Positions 4,715 to 56,100 of a DNA stretch of 64,000 bases are shown piece after piece; positions within the stretch are counted from its first letter, which is position 1; each line of letters begins with the position of its first letter. The notes beneath the pieces were generated by a model. It saw nothing but the letters and a program-made list of their open reading frames with translations, was not told the origin of the DNA and did not search any database. The stretch lies in NCBI RefSeq assembly GCF_032854445.1, contig NC_088300.1, forward strand, positions 53,418,984-53,482,983, in the 5' to 3' direction. Position numbers and translations under genes: made by a program. Source of the stretch: Liolophura sinensis (lineage: Eukaryota > Mollusca > Polyplacophora > Chitonida > Chitonidae).

Positions 4715-7700
4715 CTACAAAAACAAAACACAGTCTGTCAGAACTCCACAAAGAATTTCTCTACATGCCACACTGTCTGATCTTCTTTCATTATGTTTCA
4801 CTTGAACAGAATGATTTAATGTATAAGCAATTTTCACCACAGTAGTTTTTGAAAATATAATTTACACAAAATCTCTACAAAAGTTAACACTAGTTACCAG
4901 ACAAAAATTTTAGGACTCAAAAAGTAATATGGTATAAAATGACCTAAAATGTCATCCATGACAAAACTGCTCAATTTGTATGATTCTGAGTGTTCTTATT
5001 GATATTAGAAAGATGTTTTGAAGTTTGAGGCAGAATGACATTGAATTGGAAAAATGTTTCACCACCAACAGTTTATTTACCACTAAAAATGCACTTTAAG
5101 GGGTGGAATATTAGGTAATTTGAAGTGGGTACATGCATAGAAGTAGGAGAGAAGAAAATCAGTCACTTTGTAACACATGGCTATTTACCAGTGTGTGACC
5201 CCTGAGTATATCTAACCTCCACTTAACAGACTGCCACAGGTGTGACTTTGTAACACTTGGCTATTTACCATGTCTGGCTGGAGTGTGTGCCCCCTGAGTA
5301 TGTCTCACCTCCACATAACGGACTGCCACTGGTGTGACTTTGTAACACTTGGCTATTTACCATGTCTGGCTGGAGTGTGTGCCCCCTGAGTATGTCTCAC
5401 CTCTGCATAACGGACTGCCACTGGTGTGACTTTGTAACACTTGGCTACTTACCATGTCTGGCTGGAGTGTGTGCCCCATGAGTATGTGTCACCTCCAGAT
5501 AACAGACTGCCACAGGTGTGACTTTGTAACACTTGGCTATTTACCACGTCTGGCTGGAGTGTGTGCCCCCTGAGTATATCTCACCTCCAGATAACGGACT
5601 GCCACAGGTGTGACTTTGTAACACTTGGCTATTTACCATGTCTGGCTGGAGTGTGTGCCCCATGAGTATGTGTCACCTCTGCATAACGGACTGCCACAGG
5701 TGTGACTTTGTAACACTTGGCTATTTACCATGTCTGGCTGGAGTGTGTGCCCCGTGAGTATGTGTCACCTCCAGATAACAGACTGCCACAGGTGTGACTT
5801 TGTAACACTTGGCTATTTACCATGTCTGGCTGGAGTGTGTGCCCCCTGAGTATGTCTCACCTCCAGATAACGGACTGCCACAGGTGTGACTTTGTAACAC
5901 TTGGCTATTTACCATGTCTGGCTGGAGTGTGTGCCCCGTGAGTATGTCTTACCTCTAGATACCGTACTGCGGCTGGTGTGACTTTGTAACAGCCATTCAG
6001 GTGAATCTCCTCCAAGTTGTAGCAACTGTTAGCCAGGGCAAAGATGCTCTTGTCTGTGACATTCCTCACACCAGATAGGATTATGCTCTCCAAGGAACAG
6101 CAGCGTGCAAGTTCACATATGCCAGCGTCACTCAGCTGAAATTGAGTACAGACAAGAGTTATACCCGTGTGAGACCACAGGTGTATACATTTATACCTCC
6201 ATGTTGAGTCAAAACATGCATACAAGTACTAAATCATGCAGCTGCAACTACAACTACCTGTGACCCTGCACAATGAATATATAATGTACATACATATAAA
6301 ACTGCTTTGTATGTGTGCATGGTGTACATTTTACAATTAATATGTTGAATATTAAAACATGATTTTCCAGTTTGAGCTATTTTTTACTTGAATGGTGTCT
6401 TATGCTGTACCCAAGAATATTTCACTTATACAACGTCGGTCAGCATTACTGTGGGAGGAAACCGCGCTCGAAAAAAAAAACCATGACCAGGTTACTGTAC
6501 ACCTTCCCAGGTATGGCCCTGAACTCAAAGACCACACTGGTGAGAGACTCTTTGGTCACTGTGTCTCGATGTCATGCCAACCACTCAGCCACGGAGACCC
6601 CTTTGTCAGTTTGAGATGGGTGACATAGAAATATACATTGCAACATCACTTTTTCAGAGTTTGCGAATTACAAATGCTGTTTTATTATATGCTATGAAAC
6701 ATAAGTTTAAATTTCACAGAATATTGATTTCTGCTGTGCTTTACACACCAGAACGTCCGTATACAGCAGACGATGATACATGCAACAGAATACAAGGGGG
6801 GACAACTCAGGTCTCAACCAAAATTGTATTAGTCACTAGGTGTAACCTGATAAACTGCTGATCTCCATGGTCTTATCCAATGAGAATAATAGAAATTTAA
6901 ATGAAGTATGGCAATTACATTTGTACAACCTTAATTCAACACATACTTATTTTGTTATTTGATACGTATTAACACTGTGCTCAAGGAGTTTTCACATGTG
7001 ACTGCTTGTCAGGATTATGGGTTGAGGAAACGGAAGTAAACCACCAAATAAACCAGCTGCCTGACAAACCTCCTAACTGGCCACAGCTAAACCAATGAAA
7101 GCTGAATATGAACATTGGTGAGGGGCCTGACAGCTGCAGTGCACCAGTGCTTTAACCATCTGAGCCGGTAAGAGTCCACATTGACTCAGAAGGTTGCGTA
7201 CCATCCATATATCATACTATGTTTTGATACACCCTAGATCAGAAAACAAAGATGGCCACTGAGCATGAGTATATTCCTGTAAAACTTTAGTCTGCATACA
7301 AATCTGCTTAATGTACATCCAACTTAAGTACATAGTCTCATTATATACTGGTATTCTTTATATCTGTCACAACTATATCTCGGAAGAGCATATCTATCTT
7401 TGCAGTAATGTCTCAAAATCTAAGGGGGCAAAATGAATACCTTTATTACATGCAATATAAAAGAAGCAGTAGTTACTACAACACAATCCATACCTCGCGA
7501 CATCCCTTCAGGCCAACATGGGTAAGACTTGTTGAATTTTCAGCTAACAGAAACAAGAGATCATCTTCCACACACAGCAGCCCTGACAGATCCAGGAGGG
7601 CGAGATTACAGCAGTTCAGGGCCACTTGCCTCAGGACATCAACATTCATCTGCACAGATAAACAACTCACACAATTCCACCGCACTAACTTACAGGCAAT

Positions 7701-10700
7701 TCAAGGCAAAGACATTTATAACCATTGGTTTGGTAAAACAGCCTTGAAAAGATATATAGATGCTTTGATTTAGAACAATTTATTATTTATGTTCTATAAA
7801 TGCATAGAACATGCATGTAAATATAAACCTGCCTAAATGGCCCAATTATCACCTTCTAAAAATCATAGAAAGAGACAGGAAGTTATGTTCTTTACCATCT
7901 TTACCGAATATTGAATATAATATAAGCTGGAAAGTATTCAACGTAAATGATCCAAATTTGACCTCAAAAGTTTTGGAGGCAGGTAAATATCATAAAATAT
8001 GACTTCTGGTGAAGAATCTTCCTTTTTTTCAGTGAGGTATCATCAAACCTTTCAAACTAACCTCCAGACACATTTAAAAGATTAACAGCACTCAAAATCA
8101 TACATGATTTTGAATGTTGAATCATACATGATTTTGAATGTTGAATCATACATGATTTTGAATGTTGAATCATACATGATTTTGCCGAATGTTAATCTAA
8201 CAACATCAAGCAAAATGTGCAGTTTCATTTCTAGTCATGGGATACACTTTAGGCCATTTATCGTAGTAGCTTTATTTAAATCTCTTCCCAGGAAAGATGT
8301 TGTGTTTTCCCCACTGTTCTATTCAACTTCAACTGTTGGCATATGAACAGTAGTTTATACCACAAAGACCTCCACCAACCTTTCTACAGCTGAGAAGCAG
8401 TTTGCGGAGCTGTGGTGTCCTGGAGGTGTCCTGAAACAAAGGCAGTAGACTCTCCCCAGTGATATTCTCCAGGAGACTCAGTGAGAGCACCTCCAGTTTA
8501 CCACAGCACTGACTCACAGCCTGCAGACCCTCGTCACTAATGTGCTGACGGACACTGCCACTGATGTCCAGCTCACGCAGCTGGCCACCCACCTTCTCCA
8601 GAATCTACAACACAATACAGGACTTATTACGTGACCATAGAGTAAGGCAAACACACATAAAGAAAACCAGGTACAAATTCTACAGACAGTTGCAGAGTTT
8701 AAACCAAAATTACAAAACTTAATTCTGCTATACAGTCTACCAGAGTGCAAAAAAACAACACACACACAAAATATCAATATACAAGATTTATAATGGAAAG
8801 ATGCCAGGCAGGTGCTCAGATTGAAGAACTGTTTTTTCTGCTACTTTCACTGTTTTGCATATTTAGAAGTATGTGAATCATCCGACCGGAAACACAATCC
8901 AGGTATAAACGTCATACAGGGTGTTATTAGGCACAAACTTTGTCCACCTTTTCAAGGGTGCTTTCTTGGTGAGCGCAACATATGAGGAGAGCCTGAAAAG
9001 TTCTCAGCCAGAGGTAGGTAAAGAAGATTCATTAGACTGTATGAGCTTAATCTTAACGACCTGCAACTTCCTTTATGTATGATAAAGAGGTGCTCAATTC
9101 GTAGCCTATATAACTTTTCTGCCTCGCCTTGTAGTACTTCATCTTAATCACAGCATCCATGTCTTGTCTAATCTAGTAAACCATCATTTTGTGACAGTTA
9201 AAATAACTCACTGATAAACATAACCTCGAAAGTATATGACTAGTGAGAAGTATGCCACTTTACTCTACAGCTTAACACAACGATGTAATCACTCCGGGCA
9301 GAATGCCTGATGTCTCTGTTTGTTCTAAAAGTTGACGCTAAAAATGTGCAAAATTGTGAAATTTGTATGGCCCATCTTGGTGCAAAATTAAGACTAGACT
9401 AGACTTCCAGAAACATTCTGTCAGTGCATTTGCTGGCAAACTCATCCACGCAACTGAACACACAATACAAGTCAGAAAAACAAGTAAAGACATCTGAGAA
9501 TTTCTCTCTATCAACACCAATTTATGAAATTTAAACTTCTACACAGAAACTTTCCAAAGTCATAACATTAACATTTTCTGTAAGTATATGCTTGAGTAAA
9601 TGGGTCAAAAATTTTAAACAGGCTAACAATGCTGCTGAAAGATGGCTTCAGAAATGACCCCCTTTTCTGTATTGCTACACTTTTGATAATGCCTAAATGC
9701 CATCTGAAACTCAAAAACGTGATTGACACGGTTCATTTATGACACTAACCTTGGTCAGTGTGTCATCGCTGAGCGCAGACACGCCGGACAAGCGGATGGA
9801 CATGAGGTGCTTCAGCCTGGTGACACACTCCACAAACAGGTCAGAATCTTCCAGCAGTATGCCACAGAGGGACAGCTCTGTCAGAGTAGTGGGCAGTGTC
9901 CAGAGGGCCTCAGAGTCAGGCCGGGCACTAAGCTTATTACAGTAGGACAGGTCCAGACTCTTCAGCTGAGTACAGCCTTGAGACAGCTGGAAACATAATA
10001 GACAGGGTTTATTTATTTCTCTGAGTGGTGTTTTACACAGTAGTACAGAATTCTTTGCTTATATGACAACAGTTTGGTTTATGGGTGGAATAAACAGAAA
10101 TGACAGGAGTAAACCATTCCCCGTTTGCTAGGTTCTGGACAAATCTCCTGACTCAAAGCCGCAGCCAAGCCAGTGAGGGCTAGATGTGAACACATCAACT
10201 GCCTAAAGCCAATGCTTAAACTGTCTGAACAAGCGGGGCCTTTCAAGCAGAAATGACTGTTTTAATATGTTGATTCAGACAGGCATTAGATAAATGTAGG
10301 TTTAAACAGGTACACTGCGTAAGTTATTTGCAGTTACTTATAAGACTTGTACAAGGCCATGTTCAAGAAAATTTAACTCATATGACATTAGTTAGGCCAC
10401 AGCTGAAGTAATCTCACTAAAGCGGTCACTTCAGATACTGCCTTTCAACTTTTCAATCCCAACTCATCCACTGCTCCTCCTATCAAATTCATACTTCTGT
10501 AGTTTGGGAATGAAGTCTGCTCATACGATGACTCGGCAGAGGTTCTAATGTCTCAATTCTCCAACACAAGATGACTGGGATTCTGGGAATAGGTTTTACT
10601 TCTGATAACGACAAATCAGTATAGAGAGTGGTTACTTAATCTGATTTTGGCGATATTGAGGCAGTCTAAAACACTCAGCCATTGAGCCACTCAGCAAGAT

Positions 10701-15331: not shown

Positions 15332-15419
15332 GTTTTCCACCTCAGTGAGTTTTACAGAGGGCACATTTTGGGGGTAATTTCATGCATCGAAATGTTCAAT
15401 AGAGCTGATTAAAATGATA

Positions 15420-26500: not shown

Positions 26501-29500
26501 GATGGTAACATTAACGCTCGAGACTGATTAATCTTTCATTATAAGACTAGACTATAGCGACTAAAACTTAAGGGGCGACGACATTGTGAGAGGTTGCAAA
26601 TTGCTCAACGTAAGCGATAAAATTCTGCCCTATGTCAGTTTACCTCAGTTAGGTTTTTTTTATGATTGTTTAAGTGCTTAAATAGTAACAAATTCGTACA
26701 GTGGTCACCTCTCTGGAATTACTGTGTTGCCGCCACATTTATCAAACGCATACAACATGAGAAAAACGGTCCTCAAAGGATAAACATTGGAAAGATCGGC
26801 ATGTGATATGATAGTACCGGTTACCATCTACAGGCCGTTGACTATTTCTCTTTATTAATGATAATTAGATGATTCCATTTAGTGATAAGATGGAAAATTA
26901 CCGGAAAGCTTGCGTTCCCTGCAAACAATAAACACTGTACCACAATACATTGTTTCGAGCCCAGTTCAAGGAAGTGTTTGAAATTATTTTATCAGAAATA
27001 CATATGATTGGCTCAGAGAAGCTAAAAATACTAACGAATAATCATATACTTGCACATACCGAAACTGCCAATAAATGGAATCTGCTGATAAACGTTTGAA
27101 CTTTGAAACAGTTCCCGATGCACTCTGTGCTGGTATCTGTATAACTTGTTTGGGCACAATGAGGTACATTGATTTGTACAATGTATTTATTTGTTTGATT
27201 TGTGCTTTACGCCGTACTCAAGAATATTTCACTTATACGACGGCGGCCAGCATTATGGTGGGGGGAGACCAGGCAGAGCCCGGGGGAAACCCACGACCAT
27301 CCGCAGGTTGTTGGCAGACCTTCCCACATATGGTCGGAGAGGAAGCCAGCATGAGCTGGACTGGAACTCAGAGCGACCGCATTGGTGAGAGACTCCTGGG
27401 TCATTACTTTGCGCTAGCGCGCTAATCAACTGAGCCACGGAAGCCCATGACTTGTACAAGTACTGTGCACTAGTTCAGTGTATCTGACGCGAAGGCGTTG
27501 CTTAGAAAATGATCAGACCTTATTTCCCACGATGTTGGTCATTTGTGGAGTGTTATTTGTTCTCTTAAAATATAACTTCTATCGAGTTTGCTGCTAGCTT
27601 GACCGATCCTGAAGCAGCTACGTGTTTTTATCCTTATATTCGACCATCTGCACTGTTTCCAAAATTGATATAGGGTAATTTAAGTAACAAAGTTACTTAG
27701 ATTAGGCCTTACTGATTGGCTTGGCCTCAAACAGGGGACTAAATGATGGCAGCGTGTAAACACGCTTTTAGTTTTTTATTTTATAATATATCAGGTCTTA
27801 GAAATTTCCAGAGTTTCAGTGTCGCAGAGAGCATTTCGGCGGGGCGATGAATACACGAAAAACTGACCACATGAAAGAACGGTATAGGGAGTTTCCTTAG
27901 GGCAAGGATGTCCGATTGTGTCACAGACTGTATGGGGTTGTATCCTACTCGGTAAGGACAAAAGCGAAATGAACTTCTTGAAACCTAAACAATTGAATGG
28001 GGTAGAGATATTCTCCAAATATTGACTTGCCTCGCTTAAGAGACAGTGTGTCACGCAATTATAAAGATTAGCACCGAATTCAGGAGAGCCCTGGCAACCC
28101 GTTAAAAAAGATGCTAGGTTTGATACAGATAATACCTTTCTGTCACCTCCGGCGGAGAAAGGTCGGATCCGAACAAACTGAGAGCTTATGTTTGATTAAA
28201 GCCTGTGCGTCAGCAGACGAAAAAACGTGCTTCCTCGTCATTCGGCCAGTCTTGAGATTCAGGCAGGCACAACGCGCCATCGTTTTCTCGCGAGATTTTC
28301 TAGGTCACTACGTGAGCTGGACAGCCCTTGGGTTTCGATACAGGCTTGAGACATTTAGCAAACTGGGTTTCGCATAAAACGATGCCAAGATTAATCTGTC
28401 ACAATATTTGGTTTTCTTAATATGTAGGAATAAAGTGAGATAGATCATTCTTATGTATGTTCAAATGTTTTCATCATTTAAGGTTTTCATCATTTAGAGT
28501 GTCTTATATATGTTCAAATGTTCATCGTTTAGATGAACTTAATCAAATTGAGAATCCATTGGCATGTTTTCTGTGGAATGAAACTATTCTTTTGCTTGCT
28601 CTGTAAGAAAAAGATTCTAATCACTTGTTGTTTTAAGAAATTGCGAGTAATTGTTTTAAAGTACATCACCCAGCATACGAATATCAGAGAATGGAAATTT
28701 AAAACATTTAATCCCAGTGATTATACGAATGGTTGCAGCGAGCAAGTTGCTATATGTTTTCGTTCAGTGTTGAATCATGGTGTGTTGTCTGGCTTTTCAT
28801 TATTAGGTTAATGACTATCGTATCTGCTGTTTCCAAGTTGCCCTCTTAGTTCACATGTTATTGGCTTTTCAGTTTAGGTAGTCAATGTGCTAGTCCAGAA
28901 AAGTATTCACGGAACATTTCAGCCAAGTGTGGATGTTTTACCTGCATTCTAGATTTCTACATTGTGAGGATCGTTTTGAATGCACAAAAGCTAACTTATC
29001 TCAATGGACACATGTGTGCCAGGCCAAGTTCCAATCTAAACAACAGGGCGCCTACAAGGACCATACCAAATAAACTTTCCGATATAAACCATTGCCCACC
29101 TTAAATATGAAGGACTGGGCACCATCAAGTACCATATCCCAAAAAAACTTGACAACATAAACAACCGCTTCTCGCCATATTCCTGATTAATTTATCCTCG
29201 TGAAACAGCGTCCGATGAAGGCAGAGGCCCTGTAACAAACTTTGTATCAATGTTTGAAAAATCAGGAAAATGAGAAGGTCAAGATGGATTCGCCACATTT
29301 ACTTGAATGCACCATGCTTATATATATATATGTATATACCGGGCAAAAGAAACGTATAACCTTGTTCAGCACCACAAGAAAGATTTTTTTTTTTTTTTTT
29401 TTTTGATTGGTGTTTTACGCCGTACTCAAGAATATTTCACTTATACGACGGCGGCCAGCATTATGGTGGGTGGAAACCGGGCAGAACCCGGGGGAAACCC

Positions 29501-31167
29501 ACGACCATCCGCAGGTTTCTGGCAGACCTTCCCACTTACGGTCGGAGAGGTAGCCAGCATGAGCTGGACTTGAACTCAGAGCGACCGCATTGGTGAGAGG
29601 CTCCTGGGTCATTACGCTGCGCTAGCGCGCTAACCGACTGAGCCACGGAGGCCCCCCACAAGAAAGAGAAAGAAAGACAGACAGTATCAACATGATAAGC
29701 ATTATATTGCAATAAACCATTTTCCAAGTTCTGTTCAAAAATTCAAAGCCATATGGATATTACACTTGCTGTCAGGCCGAGTAAATAAGGCATGGGGTAA
29801 ATCTGAAAAATTACACAAGTGCAAGTAAAGGGACTCCCTTAAAAAGGTGTACCTAATGTCCTATCATGTCATAAGACAGATCGTTAGTAGCGTGTGTGAG
29901 CAACCATTGCATCAGTTAAAGCCAAAATACGTCTCCTCATGTAAGTCGTCAAACGCCGGATGACGTCATCAGGAATTCTGTCCCACTCCTCAAATAAAGC
30001 CTGTTCGAGCTGTTGCCTGTTTTGTGGGGGAGGGACGCGTTGTGTCAGACGTCGATCAAGATGATCCCACAGATGCTCTAAGGGATTCATGTCTGGCGAT
30101 CGTGCTGGCCAAGGCAGTACGTTGACATCAACGGTGTCCAGATAATTTAGTACAACTCTGGCGGTATGAGGTCGTGCATTGTCCTGCTGCAAAAGGATAC
30201 CCCTTTGCTGTTGATGCACGAATGGCACCACAACAGGTTCCAATATTTCATCTCGGTATCTTTGGCCAGTCAGATTTCCCTGGATGATGATCGTTCTCAC
30301 CTGTCCACAAATTCCGCACCATACAATCACCCCACCAGCACCAAAAGGGTGGACATTCTGAATGCAGTTTTGTGCCAATCGCTTTCCCCTGCGCCGATAC
30401 ACACGAATTCGACCATCATTTCTGAAGAGGTTATATCGGCTTTCATCAGTGAACAGCACCCTTTCCCAGTCTCGTCGCTGCCATCGACGTACAACTCTTG
30501 CCCAACGCAGCCGGTTTTGACGGTGTAGAGGAGTCAATGCCATTCCACGGAAGGGGCGATAGGCTCTGATACCACTCACGCGGAGTCGTCGTAAGACTGT
30601 GCGTCTGCTGATGGGGTGTCCCAGTGCCGTTTCCGCTGTTTCCGCCGTTGACGTCGCCGTCACAAACGGGTTACGCAGGTGGATTGTGCGGATGTACCGG
30701 TCTTCGCCAGGCGTTGTAACACTTGGCCTGCCCGATCTTGGACGATCTTGTGTCCTGCCTGTTAGGCGGTAACGACCCAACAGTCTGCTGATGGTGGCTT
30801 GACTGCAATTGAATGTTCTGGCAACGTGGTGTTGGCCGGCCCCCATGTCGGCCATACCAGTGGCTCTATCACGTTCTGCTTGTGTGAGTCTCGGCATCTC
30901 TTAGATGTTTTTTATGGTATTGCACCCTTACCATGTGCTACATCGGTATTTATATGGCGGTCATTATCGAGAATTTTCAACAGGGCCCGAAACTCTGTTT
31001 GTCCCATTTTTCATGATGTCTTACACCAATTTCAATGAATCTCGTTAAAAAGTGACGTGTACACAGAGTTGTTATGTGCAAACGTATTCACACAACGTTC
31101 AAACGTATTCAACTTATTTTTCCATAGAAAAAACTGCATTTAAAAGTGATACGTTTCTTTTGCCCGG

Positions 31168-31254
<87 letters not shown>

Positions 31255-34200
31255 CACTAAGTGGATTAAGTAGATTGTGGTAATAAAGAAGATGAAATGT
31301 AATGATGAAAATATCTTGGCTTCCTAAAACTTTTGCTGACAGTTGCCCCGCTTCATGGGGTGCACTGTACAAATAGTGACGGCATCCTGACTAGAAGGCA
31401 TGGGTTCAGTACTATACGAGCTGAACTACACGAGAAAAAACATACGAGAATTGAGTTTAACCAGAACAGTGACAATTGGTATCTGGTTTCTTATAACCGG
31501 AAAAATGACAACGTGCATGGCAGTCAGCTTCACTCAATACTTTATGCGTAACTGTTGTTGACGATGGTTAAATTAAGCAGCTCAGAGCAGAGCTCATAAC
31601 ATCATCATTTTGTAAGAGGATGCATTGGTTTTGTTACCCATGTGGCTAAGATGAGTGTGTTTTGGGTTGGGGGAGGAATGAGGCATGGGTTCATTCCCAG
31701 TTTCGGACATGGATTTTTAGATTACCCTCTCCCTGCTGTTTTCGGGGCTTGGCGTAAATAAGCTCTCGACACTGTCCTTAGTGCCGTCTGAGTGATCTTG
31801 TGTGAAGTTCGTGGGAGATCACGTGATTTTTCGTCAGTGTGAAGTACACACTGCGCTCGTTCGGTGGGTTGATAAAGGACCAGTCAAATAAATAACTCGT
31901 TCTGTGGTGAAAATCTACACGTTGCATGGGAATTAGTTACTTGCCCACGGCCATTGGTTTGTTCCCCATGTGCACTTCTGTTTCTTGCACTCGAAAACCC
32001 TCCACCATGCATTGTACCAATACACTGTTCTTCACTAAAACTTCAAATATCAAAACGTAAATAAATCAATCAGTCAAATTCCTAAACACTAAAACGAAAC
32101 GAGATAAAAAAAACATATTTCATTTCGGGCAAGTGTTTTAACAGTCACTTTTGCAGAAGTATATGAACCAGACACAAGCTAAATTCTTCCATCCTCCCAA
32201 TAATTATTATCAGCCGAAATCTGCCATCAGCCTAAAATATATCATCAACCTAATATACATCATCAGCCTAAAAATATATTATTGGCCTAAAACATATCAT
32301 CAGCTTGAAATGTATCACCAGCCTATGATATATCACCAGTGAAATCTATCAAAAAGAAGGTGTGCCAGCCGCGCTCTCCCACATTAATGCTGTCCGCTAT
32401 CGTATAAGTGAAATATTCTTGTGTACGGATTAAAATACCAATCAAATAAATAAATAATTTCTGTTTATCGTGTCAGGTTCCTTCGGGCTTACGGCAGGGG
32501 AAGTGACATACACCAGTATTCATATAACATGGACAGACTTCGCGCCCAGGAACTATGAGTACGAGTACATTGTCTTCTGGACAAAATACTTCCAGGGGAA
32601 CCTCACGGAATGGGAGGATGAACAGGTCTGTGTATAATGTATGTCATCTAAAACAATGGGGAAAACTACAACAGATGTGTGAATATTGTGTTATTTAAAA
32701 CAATGGGGAAAGCTATAACAGATCTGTGCATATTGTGTGTCATCTAAAACAATGGGGAAAGCCATAACAGATCTGTGCATATTGTGTGTCATCTAAAACA
32801 AAGGGGAAAGCTATAACAGATCTGTGAATATTGTGTGTCATCTAAAACAATGGGGAAAGCTATAACAGATCTGTGAATATTGTGTGTCATCTAAAACAAT
32901 GGGGAAAGCTATAACAGATATGTGAATATTGTGTGTCTTCTAAAACAATGGGGAAAGCCATAACAGATCTGTGAATATTGTGTGTCATCTAAAACAATGG
33001 GGAAAGCTATAACAGATCTGTGAATATTGTGTGTCATCTAAAACAATGGGGAAAGCTATAACAGATCTGTGAATATTGTGTGTCATCTAAAACAATGGGG
33101 AAAGCTATAACAGATCTGTGAATATTGTGTGTCATCTAAAACAATGGGGAAAGCGATAACAGATATGTGAATATTGTGTGTCATCTAAAACAATGGGGAA
33201 AGCTATAACAGATGTGTGAATATTGTGTGTCATCTAAAACAATGGGGAAAGCGATAACAGATATGTGAATATTGTGTGTCATCTAAAACAATGGGGAAAG
33301 CGATAACAGATCTGTGAATATTGTGTGTCATCTAAAACAATGGGGAAAGCTATAACAGATCTGTGAATATTGTGTGTCATCTAAAACAATGGGGAAAGCT
33401 ATAACAGATCTGTGATTATTGTGTGTCATCTAAAACAATGGGGAAAGCTATAACAGATGTGTGAATATTGTGTGTCATCTAAAACAATGGGGAAAGCGAT
33501 AACAGGTCTGTGAATATTGTGTGTCATCTAAAACAATGGGGAAAGCTATAACAGATGTGTGAATATTGTGTGTCATCTAAAACAATGGGGAAAGCGATAA
33601 CAGATATGTAAATATTGTGTGTCATCTAAAACAATGGGGAAAGCGATAACAGATCTGTGAATATTGTGTGTTATTTTAAACATTGAGGGAAACTAATAGA
33701 GGTTTCTAGATATTGCATGTCGCCTTAAACTTTGAGAAAATAACGATATAGATGTGTACATTAGATGCTATATTATCTTCCTAGGATACAGTGCCTTATT
33801 ATAAATCCGTTCATTTGTTATGGGAAACTAGGGCCATATTTCTGATTGTTAACTCGAATTTGTTTTGTGTCTTGAAAGTCGTGTTACAGGACACACATAT
33901 GGACTGTATGCCTTATATACAACGTTCTTGTTTTGTTTTCATTTCCTCTAATGAGATGATGAATTTTCACTCTGTAACAAGTTTTTGCCGCCATATCTCA
34001 AAATGAGCACCATTACAAGAACTCCAGACTCCGTTAGAAAAGAAAATGTGGTATTTCCATTGAATGACTTGTGATGTGTTTGTTGGAGGGTAGGTTGGCC
34101 AAGTGCCATCGGCCACGCTTGACAAGCTGGAGCAGAACACCCTGTACTTTATCAGAGTGGGCACATGGGACAACCAGAAGTAAAACCGCTTCAAAAACCT

Positions 34201-36240
34201 CTCCGAGGTTATCATGGTCACAACAATGGGTAAGCTATACAGCCGAATTACATTATTAAACGATCTTCTATGAACAGCGGTATGACTGTCGCCACATAGA
34301 ACACTTTGTGCTGCAGGAAAGGGTAAACATCACTGGACCACAGCTTAGAATCAGTTTTTTGTTTCCTGAGGAGGGTACCAATCACTCACAGACATTTTTA
34401 TTCTATGCCTTCCCGATGTCCTCGTCAATCTCTCTTAAAGTTATCTGCTTTCTATGCACCGTTTTATGTGACACTATACCACTATGTCTATATAAGCCGT
34501 TTTGTGTTGGGAGTTGTTGTTGACATTAGTGTCCATTAACGAACGATTACTGCACTGCGTGAATTTTATGTGGAGAGTCAAAATCAAAATTCAACCCGAT
34601 ACATTCATTTGTCTGCCTGTCACCAGCTATAGTTATGCAGGGATTCGGATGTGAATACGTTAGCCTTGGGCGAAGGGCCCGTCTGTCATATTTTGGTGGG
34701 ATCCGTATACAGGAATGTTGTAAACAATTCCATCACCAGTAACTATTTATTGGGCAGGAATACATCTTTTTCTTTACCTTGTAGAGTAGTAGGGGAACTC
34801 TGTGGCACGGTAGTTAGTGCAGTTCAATGACCCAGTAAAAACTCTCGTTAAATAAATGAATAAAGAAATTGCATTGCCCACTTCGTTCGAACTAATCATG
34901 TGGTTTGTACATATTTACTGTGACAGAAGTTTAAGGCTCTCTGAGTAAGTACCATAGCAGAGTTATTGTACCACAGTTATTTATCATGCTTATTGTACTG
35001 TAATTGTTATAATTAGTATCGATCAGTTTTGCTGTTTTTCTCATTTGGTGACCTGAATAATGATTTTGATACTTTGCTTCATGTCCACTTCTCTCTGAAT
35101 TAACAAAAAGAACGTAAGCATTTTGATAAGTTGTTCTGTATTGATATAAAACCTCACCATGCCTTATGCTCTGTTCGTATGTTCTGGCGGTTGTCACTTG
35201 GAAGGCAATACCTGATTGGAATATGGAGACCAGCGCATCACAGAGTGCGAAAGTATCTGTATCTGCTTACCAAACGGAACGCTGAACTGTGAAGAGCTGT
35301 GCCCGGGGAGAATCAGTGTGAACCCGGGGGGACCATCCTAACTGCTCCGGGGTCCCCGCTGGCGAGGAGTATCACGAATGCTGTACTAACCTTGTCTGTA
35401 CTGACGGTGAGTCCTTCCTAGCCAGGCTCCTCTTGACTGTTCATGTACATCTTCAAAAGCCTTTCGTGGCCACAACAGTGTATAAAATACGGCCAGTGTG
35501 GCGTTGACACCGTCACTCATTGATCAGAAATGTTACCACATTATGCACTCAAAAATGGATTGAGTGCTACGCACGTGTTAATCTAATTTTATACTGTATG
35601 TTATCATGCGATCTTCTTTCTGCAGGTTCTTGTGTTTCCGATAATGGCACACGTTACATCAACAACACAAGGTATATCACACGCTGTTCTACGTGCGAGT
35701 GTTTAAATGGACTAATTACCTGCAGTGATCTGTACGAGTGCGAGGATACTAACCAGCTAATTAGCTGTCAACGCCGAGTTGAGGGAGAGTCCGACAGTTG
35801 TTGCCCTGAACATGAATGCTGTAAGTCTCAACTACTGTACACCAGATATTTTGTTAACATTTGGGCAACAGCGTCCACTGTAAACGAACTAGCCCCAGGT
35901 CATTGCATATCTTCTGGTCCGGTACACATATCGCAGTCACCATTGATGTATTACATAAGCTGAAAACGGTATGTTATGCACAGCTTGGGATAGAATTGCC
36001 ACGGCATCGCATATTTTCCTTTCCCCATTTGTGTGATGCTTTGGCTGTGAATAATATAAACGAACTTTGTATTTGTGTGGGACGCGTGGAGGCTTTGACA
36101 CCGAAATATCAAAAACACTTGATTTAATTCGAGTGCTTATGCTCTCTGCCTAAGACAGTGTATTAAATACGGCCAATGTGGCGTTGACCAGTCATTCATT
36201 GATCAGAATGACTGGTCCAACATCATGCACTCAAGAATGA

Positions 36241-36287
<47 letters not shown>

Positions 36288-39200
36288 TGCCCTCTGTCGA
36301 CAAGACACCTGTGAAATTTACCACATATGAAATATAGATATGAAAACCAGATTGGGAAGACATGTGTTCATCGACACTTCACGCTGCGCAAGCGGACGCA
36401 CAGGCGTTGTCGATGTCCCTAACGTTCCACCAACTGCGAGAGCCCAAAATCTTATAAAGTCTAGACTAAAAAAACAATATGCAAAATGAAAATTGACATG
36501 ATGCTTAGATATGTGTTAATTATTCCAAATGCACAATTTATGGCAAAACTCGAATAAAGCATATCTTATACGTTCCTAGAACTAGGCTGCAACTTGCCTT
36601 TCCTGTCTTCGTGAGTTTAACACTTCACTCTGTGTTTTGATCCCAACAGTATCGGAGTGTGTGGAGGGCAACGTTACGTACGAACATGGTGACACAGTCA
36701 TGCGGGGTTGTAACGAACGGTGCTCCTGTCAGAATGGTTGGATCAGCTGTGAGAAGATCTGCCCCGAGGTCGACCTATCACCTCCGACCACTGCCTAAAC
36801 CCTATCATGGCCTTTCCTCCTGGGGAAAGATGTGCCGTCGTACACTGCGCCGGGTCAAATACTGGTTAGTACATGGTTATGCAAATTTGGCAGCGTATCG
36901 TTCTCTAATGACAATATTGGATTTGTTTATTTATTTATCTATTTATTCATTTGCTTGATGTTTTACTCGGCTATTTTTCGCTTTTACAACGGCGGCCGCC
37001 AGCACTATGGTTGGAGGAAACCAATATTGCATTGCTATTACTATGAATTGGTGTTCTCAGTATTTTGGAAATGAGTCTCTTGACTGTACCGGTAGCGATC
37101 AGTGGGCATCCTTTGGTGGTTTTCTATACTTAGCTCTCAGATTTCCCAACCTCATTTTAATGGGACACAGTTACATTCAGTGTTATTTTTCAGAGATAGA
37201 TTATTGCTTTGTATTCAACGCATAAGCACAGTTTGTCAGTTCCCATGTTTTTAGCAGAACACAAATTCAATACAGATGGCCAAAGCACGGAGTAAAGTAA
37301 ATTTGTTATGCACTCTGTTAGAGTGAAATGTATAGCAGAGAAGGTACACGTGTACTAACAGGCCAGGCATACAACCGAACAGTTTAATGGATGCTACGTA
37401 TATCATATCAGCCATCATGTAATGATTTCAACCAACGTCGTTGTTAACACAAACGCCTTCATAAACTCGTAAATTCTGCCCGGTTTCCGCTCACCATAAA
37501 GCTGGTTGCCATCAAATAAGTGAAATATTCTTGAGTATGGCATGAACCACCAAATGAAATAAATAAATAAATTAATTAAATGCCAAAAATTCTATCAATT
37601 AAGTCATTGTGAGGAGTAGTCGTATAGTCTAACAGAGAGGAGAGAAATCCTAAGTGTAGATGTCCCTATACGGTACACAAACTCTCTGAGCGTATGTAAA
37701 TGAACCTCCAATTTCTCTGTTTCTGTTGTTTACAGTGAGCTGCGTCATAGATGGTGTGTCTCAGGTCGTACAGGAGCCCCGGGTAACAGAGCGCTGCCAT
37801 CGCTGTACCTGCCTGGACCAGTACTCGTATCGGTGTGACCGTGGCTGTTACACAGACATAGCGGGAATCCAGCCCAGTAGTGCCTGTCCCAGTCCACAGC
37901 TAGTGCATATTGAAGGGGAATGCTGTCCACAAATCTGGTGCAACCCTGCCAGTAATTTTACAGGTATTCAATGCTACTCATTTTGCAAATCCCTTTAATG
38001 GTTGAAACATGGCATTTCTGCATGTTATTCATTTCCATTTTCGTCAACTATCTCACTGTCTTCATGCTCTGGTTTTACTTTGTGTACTGTTGTATTTTAT
38101 ATTGTTACGTTTCTACTTTTACAAAGTTTCCTTTCACTTTTTTGAATACATGCCATGCCTTAATTCCTTGGACCAAGTGACCTTTTAACTGAACAACCAT
38201 TGGAACTAGTTTTTTTTCATTATCGAATAAATATGAGAAACCCACTGTACAAAGTTCTCGCAAAGTTGCGTTAATTTTAAGCCTATATACTCTGGTAATT
38301 TAACTACGTCTTTATCATCATCTGTCATGAACGGTACCGCCGTCATAGATTGTGACTGTTAGGTAAAATGTGTCCCAGTTTCCTCGGTAAACACAATTTA
38401 CATGCATGATTATATTTATTTACTTATTTATTTGATTGGTGTTTTACGCCGTACTCAAGAATATTTCCCTTATACGACGGCGGCCATCATGACGCTGTTT
38501 TACTAAAACGTTATAATGAATTTATCTTTTTTCAAAATTAGAATCAACACCTAACACTGTCAAGCTGTTGAAAGTTTCCTGGGCGACAGCACAGAACCTT
38601 AACCTTGAGTTTAGCAGTCCAGTCACTGGCGACCTGAACGGTAGTCTTCTCGGATATCACATCTTCTACTGGGAGAGTGATGCCGTTCCACCCACCAGCA
38701 TAGATGAATGGGCTCACAGATTCCTGCCTCTAAACCAAACTCAGGAACAATCTTCTTCGAACTCTAGTAATGAAGCGTTTGAAGAGAGTTTTGCCTCAGG
38801 CAGCACTGTGCGGACAGCACTGAATGGTCTGAATCCAGGGCAAACTTATCTCGTCCGTATTCAGATTGGATTGCTCCAGGACAACAGTCACGGGCTATCT
38901 AGTCTTAACTCCCCAAAAGAATCAGATGCTCCATTGTCTGTGATAGCTGTAGCCCCTCCCATTAGTAAGTATTTTACATTTTACTGACGAAATCAATTTG
39001 CTGGAACCCAATCAGTCGTCACTATTGTTGGCTCTTTTGGTAAGGCCTGTCGTTTACTCCTAGCTAATTGAAACGTGCCACACAATGCATATCGCGATGG
39101 CGCTGGCTAATTAATGAAATGGCCCGAGCAAATGGCAGCAATTTTATAAAAGTTGTAATATAGATTTGATGCTTAGAGTTATTTCCCCTTGTTATGATTG

Positions 39201-42200: not shown

Positions 42201-45200
42201 TGGAATTGAGGTTACAATTGGAGACGTCACTTACCCCGTCATGACGATGATTTACGTCAGCGACAGCACTGTCATATGTAGACCAGGGTACCTCAAACAT
42301 GATCACGGTTGCAGTAAGTATTGTAACTGAAGTTTCTCACTTTTACGACAGTGGTCAGCTTTATGGACAGAGAATATGTCGGTAGTTGTATTCCACCCTT
42401 CGACATCATTATGGCTGACCATTGGTATACGAATATACCAATAAATATACCAAATATTAAGACGTCTTAAACCAGTGGTCAGCCAGTATCCTGAGGGTCA
42501 TTTTGTCATTTCAGTCATACGGTCTGACAGATATGGGCCACGTGACACTGTCTTTTTGAATAAATAACGACGAAAATTAACCTCTTTCGAGAAAAATGAC
42601 ATCTTTTCTCTTGAAATAACTTAAGTTATCAGCCAGTCAGATTTACTCGCTGGTACAAATTGGAATGATAACTAAGCACGATGTCGCTGTCGCTGTCGCT
42701 GTCGCTGTGACGATACAGCGAATAAACATGTGGGCTGGAGAGCTTGTGTCCTAAATGTGGTCGGATATTTCAGGCCGTAATTCTACCTTAAGAATTAGTC
42801 TGAAGAAACGGTTTGATACTTCGGCTGCTCAGATAGGGGCTATCTGCGGCGAAAGTAAGGCTACAGACGCATGAATGAAAGAGCTTTTCATGCCGTGTTA
42901 CCTCCATGAGATTAAACATGTAAGTACAATTACTGTCAATGTTAATGAATACCTTCTCATCGTGATTTTCGCTTATCTTTCCCAGTGGCAGGGCATGTCA
43001 TCAGCTCAAATCGGTCCGTGTCCTACCACGTAGCGATGAACGTCTTGAATGTAACGGAGTCCACGGCTAGTCTTCGCTGGACAGGTCTGCCTCATGATCA
43101 CCTCCAGTACCTGGATGCCTTGAGGTTGGAGTATCGGGACATTGTCGCCAATGGTACTTGGTTGACCACGGAGAAACTGCACGTCTCTAGAACGGGATAC
43201 GTCCTACGGGCTCTCGCTCCTACTAGGTTTTATCTAGTCAGATTACTCTTACTGACTTCAAGTCCAGGGCTGGGGCGCTATACAGCCGCATCATCCGTCT
43301 TCAAAACGCTCTACATAAAAGGTATCTAATGAGAAACATTATTTAATACAAAACAGACATACCGACAGCAAACCGTAGATTACACCTTTCGCTAATTGCA
43401 ATTTGTGACACGATATTGCTTCTTAAATTCCTAATATAAGAAAGCAGCAATCAGTGTTCAACCGTATTGGGATAAAAGGATGAAACCTACATCTGCTTAG
43501 GCGGTAATTTTTATATGACTGCTGGGAAAAAGACAATCCACCTCAAAATGCGATGCCTTATCCTTTTATAAAACTGGTTCCATTGAGTTCTAGTATTTCC
43601 TTTCCAATGACAAACGAACTGATCATAAATGCAGTTGACATGCATGCCAAGCGAAAGTACTGGCTTGGGTTAGCTACATATTTAGAATAAGCGAAAATCC
43701 TTAACCATGTTCTTTGATTTTTTTTGATTTTTTTTTTCTTTGATTTTTTTTATTGAAAATATATTTTGCCCTCAGCCATTTCCCGGCCAGAGATAACCGG
43801 AATGGATGTGTCGTCTTCCGCCGTAACTGTCCGTTGGAGTGAATTACCAGATGAGCACAGGCGCTACGCAGAAGAATATTTCATAGCTTTCAGCAATATT
43901 TCCAAAGGAGGGCAAGCTTTTCCATATAATAGAACCCCTTCACTGGCTCCCACCGTCACAGAGTACACGCTCCAGGCGTTAGCACCAGACACTATATACA
44001 AAGTCAAAGTAGCATTAGTTTTATCCAATGGGACAACAGTATTCTCTCTGTCAGCGGATGTAAGAACGAAAGAAGCTGAAGGTAAGGAATTTATGGGTAC
44101 ACAATTAAGGAATTTTCCAGTATATTTCTCCAGTTAGCCTGAATCCTGTTCAGCGTACAAAGTATATCAGCTGTAAATTCATAACTTAATTCAGCATGTA
44201 AGCCTAACAACTGTGCTTGTCAACAAGGGAATTTACAACTGAGCATGTTTTGTTAGAAGTTTTCCAATAAGTGTGAATGACATAATTAAATGTTAATTTG
44301 GCGATTGTGTTGCTCACTCATTCTTTACATCGGCATTGCCCAATTTAATATATTACGACACGTTTGCATTTTAGTTTCAGGATTTATTTCCCATCGCGCA
44401 GTGATAATTGGCGTGAGTTCCGTGGCCTTCTTGGCAGTGGCAGCTCTCATCACCCTCTTAGTCTGTATCTTTAAAATGCGTCGATCATCTTCAAGATTGA
44501 GTGTCTCCAGCAGTGAAAATAATTTTGAAAACAAAATGTTCGATGTAAGTAGGAAATAAGAATGATGTTTTTGAAAATGAAGCGAAATTGTAGCAAAGTA
44601 TACATATATTTGATTTTAAATCCAGATGCATTGTTTGTATCATAATGCTGTACATGTATGTTAAAGATAAGATCATTGTCAAAACATTCAGTTCGGGGTC
44701 TGAATTTATACACGCTATTTTCAAGAAATGACGGGGGCCTCCGTGGCTCAGTTGGTTAGCGCGCGCAGCGTAATGACCCAGGAGCCTCTCACCAATGCGG
44801 TCGCTGTGTGTTCAAGTCCAGCTCATGCTGGCTTCCCTCCAGGCTCTGCCCAGTTTCCTCCCACCATAATGCTGGCCGCCGTCGTATAAGTGAAATATTC
44901 TTGAGTACAGCGTAAAACACCAATCAAATAAATCAAGAAATGATAATACATGACTAGTGGCGAACATCAAACTAGCACTGCAGTCACACTTTGGGGCTTG
45001 ACAGATTGGCAGGAGTGCAGATTTCAACAAAAGCAACGAAACATTAGTGGTTTTATCCATTCACTGCAAGCTCTAAACTTTGGTAAAAGTCGGTTAACCC
45101 TGATATGTAACTTACGTTTATGATGTTCAGTACCGATATTATCACATCACACAATTCATTTAACAGCAGAAGTCTACCTACCTCATCAGGTGCGCATCAA

Positions 45201-50335: not shown

Positions 50336-50689
50336 CAACAACGTGTAACATAGGTTAATATAAGCAACAAAACACGCTTATTCAGCTTGATGACATTGGC
50401 CCAATACACCATATAAACAAGCGCATTAGCTTCATTTAAGACGCGTGACTACGGTTCTTAACATTGTTTTGGAATCTTGTGCAAGCCTTACTGAGATAAA
50501 TTGAGCACCACAGCGTTGAATAATCGGGGTATATTCCACTGTCACCACACCAAGGGTTCACTGTCACTCATGGATCACTTCCAGCGGACAATATACACTC
50601 ACCCACTGAAAGACTAAGTGCACGGACAGAAGTCAGCAGCATGGACAAGGAAACTCTTTGACAGGCATGATCTCTATTCATGAATGGGA

Positions 50690-51060
50690 TAATATTATAA
50701 CACTGGAAGTGAGGATCTTCACAAATGGAACTGATGGTATCCACATTTGGGAGTGAGGATCTTCACAAATGGAACTGATGGTATCCACATTTAGGAGTGA
50801 GGATCTTCACAAATGGAAGTGATGGTATCCGCATTCGGAAGAGAGGATCTTCTCAAATGAAAGTGAGGATCTTCACACATCAAAATGAGGATCTCCACAT
50901 ACGGAAGTGATAATCTCCCTTAATGGAAATGAATAGCTCCACACGTGCGACTGAGGATCTCCACATACGGAAGTGATAATCTCCCTGTTTGGAAGTGAAT
51001 AGCTCCACACGTGCAACTGAGGATCTCCACCTGGAAAACTGATGATCTCTGCTCAAACAT
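50690..51060. repeat. Tandem repeat of a 22-23 bp unit
   Basis: Variants of GGAAGTGAGGATCTTCACAA alternate with GGAACTGATGGTATCCACAT and later AATAGCTCCACACGTGC forms, about 16 units arranged in higher-order pairs. Intergenic. Confidence 0.85.
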
Positions 51061-52935
51061 ATGTCTCCTATAGACATAATCACTGATTTATACACGTAGA
51101 AATTACGTATATCAATGTTTTATTTGTCACCCTATAATACACTAAATATGGTAGTTAATTTTGTCAAAATACCATTTCATAGCCTCCTCTTGATTTGTTG
51201 CAATATCTTTTGAAACTACATGAAAGATAAAGGCTCAAATCTAAAGCGACATCATCTGTAACCGCGAAGTCACAACATCAGTGGTCAGTAGCATGGTATA
51301 TAACACAGGAAAACTACTTGACGTTATCAAATATGGTGGACGCGTGAGTATTAATGGGCTACCTTATCTTACCATCTTTTGAGCTAATGGGAAGCTTAGC
51401 GTACATTATTCCACCAACATTCCCAAATGTCCTCTGGAACTCCTATACCCATCCTGTCCGAATTTCACCCAAATGCTTGACTCTACTCCTTCAAGTCAAC
51501 CCAATCATCCTGTTGTAATTTAGACAGAGGTATTACTTTGTGATTTGTAAGGTTTCTACTGTAACTAAAATTCACTTAGGGAGTTAGCTAAATTGAAGTA
51601 GCCATAATGAATGACGGGGTATAGTAACAAGCTGAAGGTCGTCCAGCGTCCTTGATGTTACGTACATGTTTTGCCAGTGAGCACGGAAAACTTTGCTGTG
51701 AATAACAAGTCGCTTCTAATTATCCTTAAGCCATTAAACACGGCGTTACCTAAAGTTTAGATATCTCAATTACGGGTTGGAATTTCATGGTGTTTAGAAA
51801 ATTGCTGTTTTGTTTGGATGTATTGTGCTGATTAGCATGGTCAGTCTCGTCAAAGGATTTTTGTTCTAAGCAGTCACTTGAAGACTGTAATAACTGACAA
51901 GTAATAGCTTCAGATTTACAAAGAATATCCAGGTAAAATCTCAGAGAGTGATTAGTTTAACAAAAGATCTAGATTTTTCTGCCTTGTACGCTTATCGCTA
52001 TGCACTATTTAGCACAACGGAGGTGAGTATTTTAATAATGCTGAAATGGATTAAAACTGTTCCAAATTTGGAAATACCACAGTCCCTGAAAACTCAGGAA
52101 AACAAATTACAAAAAAGATGATTGTATTACAGGAAAAGTCCAGCAATCCAATCTCATCACACAAGTTTTATCAATAAGATTCAAACACTAACATGAGTAT
52201 TATTTACTCGAGGTCCTCTACAGGAGCACGTTCTAGAAGATGACATGGTATGAAAACAGTATAGGAAATGGGCCACTTAAGTGTCTGTGACCAGGGGTTT
52301 GTTTTCATTGTAGCAGCTTCGCGTCAATTTCAGTATTACTTCACTTCTATCAGAACAGCGTGTCCTTCTGATTGTGGAAATTCTCACTGAGATCAATAAA
52401 TCTGTACTAAGAAAAGTCCTCATGGCACTCTAGCCCAAGTTCTATGCTCTTAAGTATATTAGTCCTCAAAATGCTTCTTTTTAACCTTCAAAGAGAATTA
52501 GCCCAAACTACGATTTTGTCTCTTATTTTTTTCCGACTCAATAATGGGTCTAAACTCAGGCACATGGTACAAAAGCGACTATCTGGTTTATAAGATTAGG
52601 AATAACATATAACCTACAACCCAATTTGGTGAGGGCACATTCCATAGATGAGTTTTCACTTTTCCCCTTTTACTTGCGCGAGTTTCCTGTATGCCTTCTT
52701 GTGTATGCCGGAAGTCATCAATATGTGCCTGTAATGTTTGATTAGCCCCCGCTGGACTGGGTTGTTTTGCCGGAGACAGAGAGCTGTGGTCCGTTTCTGC
52801 CGATCTGACCAATAACCAATCAACACGCCTTGACAAATCCGGCTACATGAGATTCTTTCTTGTCGATTCTTCAGTAGTGCTCTCTCAGACTGATATGTGT
52901 TCACTCTCAACACCTTGAAGGTCAATCGGGCTGAG

Positions 52936-52942
52936 ATATAAG
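52936..52942 (+). promoter_or_regulatory. TATA-like element of the metalloprotease gene (candidate)
   Basis: ATATAAG lies about 150 bp upstream of the metalloprotease ATG, with no other clear core element. It would place initiation near 52965. Confidence 0.3.
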
Positions 52943-53087
52943 CTGAACAAAAGACTTATTGGAGGTGACACAGTACAGGAGAGAATTTGTAAGAGTCTTC
53001 TGCACCTGATTTTGGAATATTAAGCGTTTTTTGGTATTTACCAAAACGCGTCTTGTACGGATACAAGTTTCGGAGTGGACATCCAAT

Positions 53088-53145
53088 ATGCTACGTCAGC
53101 TACCCACATTCATCATCCTCGCCTGTCTTCTACCTGGAGTTAACG
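53088..53145 (+). CDS. Metalloprotease exon 1: signal peptide
   Basis: ATG opens MLRQLPTFIILACLLPGVN, ending with G (phase 1) before donor AACG|GTAAGC. This is the only clear signal peptide in frame with the downstream exons. The donor is the first register of a 42-bp minisatellite. Confidence 0.88.
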
Positions 53146-56100
53146 GTAAGCTGGACATCACTTCTAAACTATCATGATCATAAAACGGTAAGCTGGACAT
53201 CAGTTCTAAACTATCATGATTATAAAACGGTAAGCTGGACATCACTTCTAAACTACCATGATCAGAAAAAAGGTAAGCTGGACATTACTTCCAACCTACC
53301 ATTATCATAAAACGGTAATCTGGACATCACTTCTAACCTACCATTATCATAAAACGGTAAGCTGGACATCAGCTCTAACCTACCATGATCAGAAAACGGT
53401 AAACTGGACATCAGTTCTAACCTACCATTATCAGAAAACGGTAAGCTGGACATCACTTCTAACCTACCATGATCATATAACGGTAAGCTGGACATTTCTT
53501 TTTATTTACCATGATCAGAAAACGACAATCTGAACATCACGTTTCACCTATCATGATCTGAAAGTTTCAAGCTTTATTATCTGCTAATACTGTTTTTCTT
53601 AAAGTATATGAAGTTTTCTTTAAAATACTACCGTAAATAGTTTGGCTGTTCCTTTAATTTCTGTTAGAATATCTTTAAGCGACCACAACAGAAACAGAAT
53701 ATATCTCTTGACCTTGACCTATTATGCTTGATCATTGCTTATACTTACTCTGTGATACGATACATCAAAACCTCCGAACATATATCTCTAATATAAACCA
53801 ATGTAACTAATTGCTCGAGTTGCAGATGTGATTTAATCTCTTCTGATGTATAGTCATGGTTATACTGACATGTTTTGGTCAGGGAGGAATTCAGATGCTG
53901 AGTATTTGGAAGAGGGTGGATTTGACGCCGGCCGTGATGACATTGTGGAGGCGGGCGACTTTATTCTCGAAGATCCTGACGATATGAATGATATTGACGC
54001 AGAGCTGGAGATTTTGCCTGCCGATATCAGCCATCCTGACATTATCAGCACAGTTATCTCTGAGATTGAGAGTTTTCGCGATCAAACAAATAGCCAGTCC
54101 GATGTCGATAGGGAGAACGCACTGGCCGAAGTTGATCTGGCGGCAAAGCTGCTGGAAATGGAAGAAGCAGACCGCGACTCGCGTGCCCACGTGTTCAGCT
54201 TGGAAAATGGCATCATAAGAGAAGAGGTAACAGTTAATGTCTTATTGAAAGGAAGCTTCTAAACCATGTGGGAGCCAGAATCAAAAAGGGGTTTTCTGTA
54301 TTTAGGCTGTATGATTAAGGGTGTAGCCATAGAAGTGAATTACCCTTTTTCGTGATAAGGTAAATTTTCCGATGTATTGTTTTAATAATACAATACAACC
54401 AGCCAGACACTCATGTGGCTTCCCTGAAGCATGGTTCTAAACATTTGAATTTTTGCAATTCACATCCAATGGCTGCTAGACAAAAATCGACCTCTATAAC
54501 AGGTTTGCTTTATTACCAGTACTCGTAGAAATGACTCAGATAAACATCAGGAGATTGTATTACATATGATATTTTACATATGATATTTTAGCAGAAGGGT
54601 CCATGTAAACTTAAAGGGGCATAGGCATTTTTTTCATTACGTGGTTGGTAACTCTATGAATCACCTTTTAATCTGGAACTCTTATAAAGCCATGGGATAC
54701 GTCCTTTTACAGAAACCGGAAAGACAATGTCGCGTCATTCGTAATCTACGTTCTTCAGTATTAGAGACGAGACACCATTGTTGTGCGTATTGATACAGAT
54801 TATAAGTACTGTCCCCCTTATTATTACACCCGAAGGCAACGCGGTATGGCTAGCTAATTTAGACCTTGGGGAATAACCTTAGGCGTATTCCACTACCACT
54901 TTCTCGCGGAAAATGTCTATAAAGTATATCGGAATTGTCTTGCAATCAGACGGAAAACCGCTGAAATAACACTACTTCTACAGGGCAAAATGGTAAACTA
55001 GAAACGATGACGTCACAGAGAAACAGGCGCCCTCTCGGGTGGTAGAAACATCTCGCCCTAGATTGGTTAAAACTGAGAGCATGGCGGTCCTTTCGATTTT
55101 CCCTACGTTAGCGTGTTTGCTTACTTGAACTGCGATATCTCGGTTATCCTACATCACAAAAATGAAAAGTGACCTTTTATTGAATTTTAAATGTGACTCT
55201 TTACACATTTGGTCTAGTGTTGTCCTTTCTTTTAAACAGAATAGGTATCACTTGATACAAAATCAGTTTTTAGTTGATGTCACTCCATTTTAGTTACAGA
55301 GGCGGTATAAGCAACCTGACTGGCCCACGTGGTAAATATACAGCTCCATATACATGTATTCTGCGAAAAGGTTCTCAAAGTGTTACACTTTTAGTACAAA
55401 GGGAGTTAATCGATATACTAATCACCACAGTCGCGGACAAGAATCGATATGCTTCATAGCTATGGCCAAATAAATTGGTTTGATTTCGAGAAGCTTCTAA
55501 CAGGCCTGCAAAGCCATCATTTTTAATGTTAGTTGATGGTGTTTGTTCTTCACTCCATTTCTGAACTTCGTTTCAAAACCGATCACTTCCTCCTGGGAAA
55601 TAAAAAAGAGTGGACTAACATCCGACATGTTTCTGTGACATAACACCGCCATTTGTCTAGAAAGTGCGACGCGGCTGTCAACATAACAGTGTAAAGTGCA
55701 ACAGAAACCCAATTATTTTCCGTTTGAAGTATGATTTCTTGTACTCCTAGTAAGAGGATTGGGCATAATTTCACCCGATTGCCCGAATTTCTCGTGTTTA
55801 ATACACATCTTTATAAATCAATTTAGGAGGACATTTTTCCATGATAATATCCTTGGGAGAATTTGAATGTGGACGGCAGTAAAAAAAACCACCGAATAAT
55901 GTACGATGTATTTTATTGCACTTATAATTACATACCAGTGTTTCATTAATTTGAGCATCTGGCATGAGAGCGATTTTAACCCCATCATCATCCTCTATAA
56001 AATGATATCGTGTACCCACAACATTCCTTGTGATTGCATTTTGGACAACTATAAACCAAAGGCGACAACGACGTTGATAGTAATATTATTAAACCTGATT

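Follow-up and report, generated by a model that had tools for sequence, protein, structure and literature searches.

The stretch of DNA analysed in this study, which will be referred to as the window, comprises 64,000 nucleotides of the genome of the chiton Liolophura sinensis (contig NC_088300.1, positions 53,418,984 to 53,482,983 of the forward strand). Its coding content fits three public L. sinensis proteins (P0001, P0121 and P0122), and in each of the three genes a long minisatellite lies within an intron at a 5′ splice site, a position that is firm for arrays 1 and 3 and likely for array 2 (Table 1). This arrangement, with units of 92, 49 and 42 bp, had been pointed out in a first-pass annotation, and the repeat finder and the copy registers agree with it.

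Table 1. Arrays, proteins and exons of the window, and junctions carrying an array end in the genome sample (slash, exon-intron junction; L, loci; B3 and B4, random blocks)
Feature	Position	Strand	Description
Array 1	5162..5991	-	92-bp unit, nine traced copies; later copies intronic
Array 2	32621..33747	+	49-bp unit, 23 traced copies, the final two degenerate; 5 nt of exon included
Array 3	53142..53563	+	42-bp unit, 10 copies; 4 nt of exon included
P0001		-	F-box/LRR-repeat protein, 547 aa; maps exon by exon with exact translation
P0121			VWC/FN3/transmembrane protein, 806 aa; exact exon-by-exon translation; start at 36807
P0122			ADAMTS-18-like metalloprotease, 618 aa; piecewise mapping, reaching near the window end
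F-box/LRR-repeat gene, exon 9	5953..6135	-	Last exon base 5953, donor GAG/gtaaga; exact match to P0001
F-box/LRR gene, exon 10 (last coding exon)	4601..4714	-	Beyond the array-bearing intron 4715-5952
Exon with first half of FN3-like domain	32477..32625	+	Upstream of the annotated VWC/FN3/transmembrane gene; donor CAG/gtctgt
FN3-like domain, second half	34094..34229	+	In-frame TAA at 34181-34183
ADAMTS-like metalloprotease gene, signal-peptide exon (coding part)	53088..53145	+	Donor ACG/gtaagc; P0122
ADAMTS-like gene, exon 2	53883..54226	+	Beyond the array-bearing intron 53146-53882
L040			Donor; 67-bp unit; receptor-tyrosine-kinase exon by PDB matches
L049			Donor; 65-bp unit; HMM-found set
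L064			Donor; 76-bp unit, only 2.2 copies; HMM-found set
L027			Acceptor; 37-bp unit; HMM-found kinase exon
L029			Acceptor; 80-bp unit; HMM-found set
L079			Acceptor; 27-bp unit; HMM-found set
Block donors with junction array	B3:37099, B4:46495, B4:39570
Block acceptors with junction array	B4:9603, B4:22028, B4:36745

Arrays in the window were detected with Tandem Repeats Finder, which called 5190-5991 (92 bp, 8.7 copies), 32621-33692 (49 bp, 21.9 copies) and 53142-53558 (42 bp, 9.9 copies), and the copies were then traced register by register. In array 1, each unit spans the donor, with the final 39 nt of exon 9 on one side and 53 nt of intron on the other; since the host gene lies on the minus strand, the exon end of this array is its high-coordinate end (5991). 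The annotated start exactly at the junction thus holds for arrays 2 and 3 to within the 4-5 nt of exon that they include, and fails for array 1, which starts 39 nt inside the exon. Of the host introns, which measure 1238, 1468 and 737 nt, the arrays occupy 791, 1115 and 418 nt, respectively (57-76%), and each array reaches one end of its intron only. As had been annotated, the three units have no evident sequence in common, and the copies within each array diverge from one another in a graded fashion. Altogether, the window holds seven arrays with a period of at least 20 and a length of at least 80, and the four not listed here coincide with none of the 67 mapped window junctions. Junction arrays were thus found at 3 of 34 donors (0.22 expected) and at none of 33 acceptors (0.27 expected), figures that apply to a window itself picked by an earlier reader and carry no correction for that choice.

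The junctions at arrays 1 and 3 agree with the public proteins (YLE/DCC in P0001 and GVNG/RNSD in P0122). The case for array 2 is weaker than for the other two, its exon being absent from P0121 and from every public protein found. Support for this exon comes from splice-site scores and from domain matches of the joined exon halves, which reached 28.2 bits for the purple-acid-phosphatase N-terminal domain and 22.3 bits for FN3, both slightly below the Pfam cut-offs; the first half by itself gave no match. Apparent frameshifts were noted by eye in the FN3/VWC exons upstream of 36807, at approximately 35320-35340 and 36780, and this upstream part may represent decaying exons, a bad allele or a mis-assembly.

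Many of the later copies still carry the splice signal of the border copy. Across 13 traced arrays, including those of the window, GT or AG was kept in 89 of 124 later copies. The GT donor is present in all eight later copies traced in array 1, where the peptide encoded by the exon piece is conserved apart from one or two changes in seven copies, the eighth containing a stop. Array 3 has retained the donor in eight of nine later copies, and array 2 has lost it in 20 of 22, mostly by a change of GT to AT. In the F-box/LRR and ADAMTS-like genes, splicing at a later donor would in each of the first seven cases lead to an in-frame stop inside the first repeat unit; according to P0001 and P0122, it is the outermost (first) donor that is used at arrays 1 and 3. 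At the L049 donor (position 810), all five downstream decoys (AAG or ACG/gtaagc) outscore the real donor (AAG/gtatgc), and in one array 12 of 15 copies are donors roughly as strong as the real one. At the first donor of the F-box/LRR gene, a candidate for a decayed copy was also considered and discarded, as it failed the spanning test.

The comparison of repeat ends with splice sites was carried out on a sample of the genome outside the window, consisting of two exon sets. For the first, exons were found with hidden Markov models (HMMs): 54 protein-kinase exons were taken from 138 HMM matches together with 600 bp flanks, the choice being made by match length and score and blind to repeats, and 14 kinesin exons from three genes were included. 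Usable splice sites were obtained for 67 of these 68 exons; L041, one of the 54 kinase loci, yielded no usable exon call. The second set derives from four random 50-kb blocks of the Liolophura genome, which contain 48 arrays with a period of at least 20 and a length of at least 80. An exon scorer was trained on the window and its output chained into genes, a first chaining gene finder having been replaced because it fused all exons into one gene. On the window, which is its training sequence, 22 of 25 predicted donors were true and 22 of 34 donors were recovered. With a score of at least 22, 34 block exons were predicted, none of them in block B1, which therefore contributed nothing. Three were dropped as more than 35% of their length was array, leaving 31, to which a kinase exon at B4:39570-39656 was added by hand; its score of 21.5 fell short of the threshold of 22, and its array was already known at that point. 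An array end was counted as a hit if it lay no more than 60 nt from the junction on the exon side or 5 nt on the intron side, and the expectation was derived from sites in these loci that lie 120 bp or more away from any exon edge.

Array ends were found at 6 of 134 junctions of the HMM-found exons compared to 1.50 expected (p 0.004), and at 6 of 64 junctions in the random blocks compared to 1.10 expected (p 0.001). Combined, this amounts to 12 of 198 junctions and 2.60 expected (p 1.8e-5), an approximately 4.6-fold excess. Four other cut-offs gave p values from 1.8e-5 to 6.6e-4 for the combined count, and removal of the hand-added exon left 11 of 196 (assumed expectation 2.58, p 8e-5). The annotated proposal that array ends gather at exon borders beyond chance is thereby supported, with a bias of uncertain strength (see below), whereas the donor-only pattern it envisaged did not appear: donors and acceptors were hit equally often (6 of 99 each). 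In ten of the 12 hits the array includes 5-52 nt of exon, and in the other two it abuts the junction, reaching 1 nt past it in one case and stopping 3 nt before it in the other. Units in the HMM-found set range from 27 to 80 bp.

Several further cases fell outside the main cut-off or the counted set. The array at L061 begins 16 bp into the intron and that at L058 ends 58 bp short of the acceptor; the doubtful exon B3:10598-10795 has 62 nt in an array, thereby missing the 60-nt limit, and becomes an extra hit under cut-offs of 100/10. B3:14821-15083 and B3:46396-46839 resemble junction arrays at exons that were not part of the counted set. In addition, the region of block B4 from 34 to 47 kb (L019-L023) appears as a single tyrosine-kinase gene, with 82 bits for PK_Tyr_Ser-Thr on the joined exons, which we take to be lemur-kinase-like. 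This one gene apparently carries three junction arrays, at the donors 46495 and 39570 and 3 nt short of the acceptor 36745.

Arrays situated at exon-intron borders are known from amphioxus, as the first-pass annotation had pointed out. Termed mirages, they are described in two reports for Adh3, the globins BflGb6 and BflGb9, retinol dehydrogenase and presenilin (both cited there), troponin C and PGBD5 (PMC3087553, PMC3902484). Their units measure 10 to about 160 bp, they occur at 5′ and 3′ borders, many copies keep AG/GT, and the mRNA is normal as inferred by those authors (PMC3087553, PMC3902484). The chiton arrays resemble them in that units of minisatellite size span or abut the border with the border copy being part of the gene, in that both intron borders are affected in the sample (donors alone in the window), and in that many though not all copies keep AG/GT (only 2 of 22 in array 2). 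As judged by this structure in the sequence, the chiton arrays are mirages in kind. They differ in having a mollusc rather than a cephalochordate as host, which makes this a second lineage, and in that their frequency was sampled and set against that at intronic points; they are known from one assembly and protein models. Mirage-like arrays beyond cephalochordates were not found in the open-licence literature among the matches listed.

Taken together, we consider it probable that mirage-type tandem duplications occur at splice junctions in many Liolophura genes, at both intron ends and in excess at exon borders, with the outermost copy being spliced. The unit anatomy, the involvement of both intron ends, the recurrence in unrelated genes, the kept decoys and the excess of array ends over nearby intronic points are direct observations. 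A short stretch of DNA straddling or abutting a splice junction would be tandemly duplicated, and its copies would multiply inside the intron. The spliceosome would then take the outermost copy, i.e., the first donor or the last acceptor, as public proteins indicate at two junctions; splicing of the outermost copy would leave the coding sequence unchanged and make the remaining array intron. The duplications might originate from the slippage during replication or repair that gives rise to minisatellites in general, in a genome rich in them, and the arrays might survive neutrally, being tolerated as intronic sequence. Exon borders would have a raised rate of array birth or survival, for which the junction sequence, the chromatin and polymerase pausing at exon ends are candidates.

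The most serious alternative is that no special process is involved: dense minisatellites would fall anywhere in introns, with the exons acting as walls, so that survivorship mimics a rule. Arrays with a period of at least 18 and a length of at least 100 indeed cover 12%, 3%, 14% and 22% of the four random blocks, and several results weigh against a bias towards exon borders. Judged by self-similarity, the proportion of junctions inside arrays did not exceed that of intronic positions at a distance of 120-420 bp (at a score of at least 18, 10 of 135 donors and 10.3 expected, 7 of 132 acceptors and 10.9 expected, in a set that included three predicted exons lying in arrays), and the excess therefore appears only when array ends are counted. 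Overall, donor motifs were not enriched in the array units (57 arrays, mean p 0.45, three below 0.05). Array ends showed no excess at crude exon scores, a test containing many false exons (50 arrays; donors 5 and 3.2 expected, acceptors 4 and 3.1 expected). Genome-wide, AGGTAAGT triplets numbered 661 compared to 547 for the backward word, a weak difference with clustered counts. No clear excess emerged from these four tests, which makes the strength of the bias uncertain. Furthermore, the cut-offs for the junction counts were fixed only after the first examples had been seen, and the block exons were predicted by a window-trained tool, for which repeated splice signals could favour false exons beside arrays; the HMM-found set is less open to this bias. 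As the arrays are long and dense, many intronic positions fall inside one, whereas a junction is a single point that can occupy only an edge copy, and array ends are therefore the fair measure if duplication is local. If a minority of arrays lie at junctions, half of them at acceptors, the motif and boundary tests are weak, yet they bound the effect. An explanation without any special process has to meet the requirement that a duplication copying exon and splice site must span one unique point, and it is at odds with the roughly 4.6 times higher frequency at junctions than at intronic points and with the exon sequence found inside the array in 10 of 12 hits. We regard it as possible, though doubtful.

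Seeding at donors via R-loops of the nascent transcript or by reverse splicing, as the first-pass annotation had suggested, would account for the window, in which all three junction arrays are at donors and none of 33 acceptors is affected. Since acceptors were hit as often as donors outside the window, such seeding is disfavoured; moreover, the copied unit is exon and intron DNA in genomic order and not an intron insertion. This mechanism therefore appears quite unlikely. Much the same holds for the idea that extra splice sites are useful, as spares or as splicing regulators, and were kept by selection. The retained signals (89 of 124) and the strong decoys of L049 would fit this idea, but recent amplification can by itself explain retention, the donor has gone from 20 of 22 copies in array 2, and later donors in the F-box/LRR and ADAMTS-like genes meet a stop; we consider it very improbable.

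A further alternative is that the introns themselves were born from tandem duplications, as drawn for the amphioxus globins and proposed in PMC3087553; the share of 57-76% that the arrays take of the three window introns would be in line with it. The array-bearing intron of L027 is identical in position and phase to introns of the kinase loci L037, L058 and L070, none of which carries an array at the matching junction (the array of L058 ends 58 bp away). This position lies before the D of what we take to be the HRD motif. Because it is common to kinase introns without an array at that junction, the intron preceded the array there, which speaks, as a single case, against intron birth, as does the finding that the window arrays reach one intron end only. 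This origin seems highly improbable to us. Tandem duplication of AGGT-containing sequence as a route to intron gain (work by Rogers, by Zhuo et al. and by Gao and Lynch, cited in PMC3087553) likewise multiplies splice signals and differs from the chiton arrays in the same two respects. An artefact of assembly or annotation is hardly credible: array 2's exon lies outside the public protein and the HiFi depth is only 14x (PMC11068029), but the copies differ in a graded way, public proteins fit arrays 1 and 3, the structure recurs at junctions outside the window, and all arrays seen are shorter than the HiFi read average of 8.3 kb given in the same source.

Intronic minisatellites have been linked to splicing in another animal as well. 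CeRep25B of C. elegans flanks alternative exons and is linked to alternative splicing (PMC4039745). It shares with the chiton arrays the location within introns and differs in being one family at many places, whereas the chiton arrays are local copies of exon borders, with unrelated units in the window.

As to the genomic context, the distance to a chromosome end is about 0.7 Mb for one of the two densest random blocks and about 3.4 Mb for the other, and 14 of 23 AGGTAAGT-triplet arrays on C1, among the matches listed, are within the outer 5 Mb. The FN3 exon of array 2 is preceded, at a distance of roughly 1.6 kb, by an uninterrupted transposase frame of 338 aa on the minus strand (29887-30900; HTH_Tnp_Tc3_2 54 bits, DDE_3 40 bits), which presumably belongs to the Tc1/mariner superfamily. 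An interspersed repeat is present on both strands at approximately 27320-27420, 29460-29590, 44815-45060 and 56460-56700 and at other places; with frames reading like YSRIFHLYDGGQHYGG, it is probably a short interspersed element (SINE) or similar. Amphioxus is highly heterozygous. Likewise, a high heterozygosity of about 1 to 4% is reported for chitons (PMC12005716), and this common feature may be a lead. The chiton assembly was first published as L. japonica (PMC11068029), and a correction on the species name followed (PMC12441733).

The arrays described here extend to a second phylum what had been a peculiarity of amphioxus genes, and they come with a first rate, 6 of 134 junctions for HMM-found exons and 12 of 198 with the random blocks. 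They also represent a natural experiment on splice-site choice, in which a dozen near-equal donors stand behind one exon and the outermost is taken in the two cases that can be checked by proteins. We tentatively suggest that exon borders, 5′ and 3′, might be hot spots of tandem duplication in some animals, affecting several per cent of junctions and having arisen at least twice, in amphioxus and in the chiton; this might reflect processes acting on the DNA where exons end, for example the pausing of transcription or the edges of nucleosomes. The question of exon borders as mutational hot spots thereby becomes open to a simple genome-wide count.

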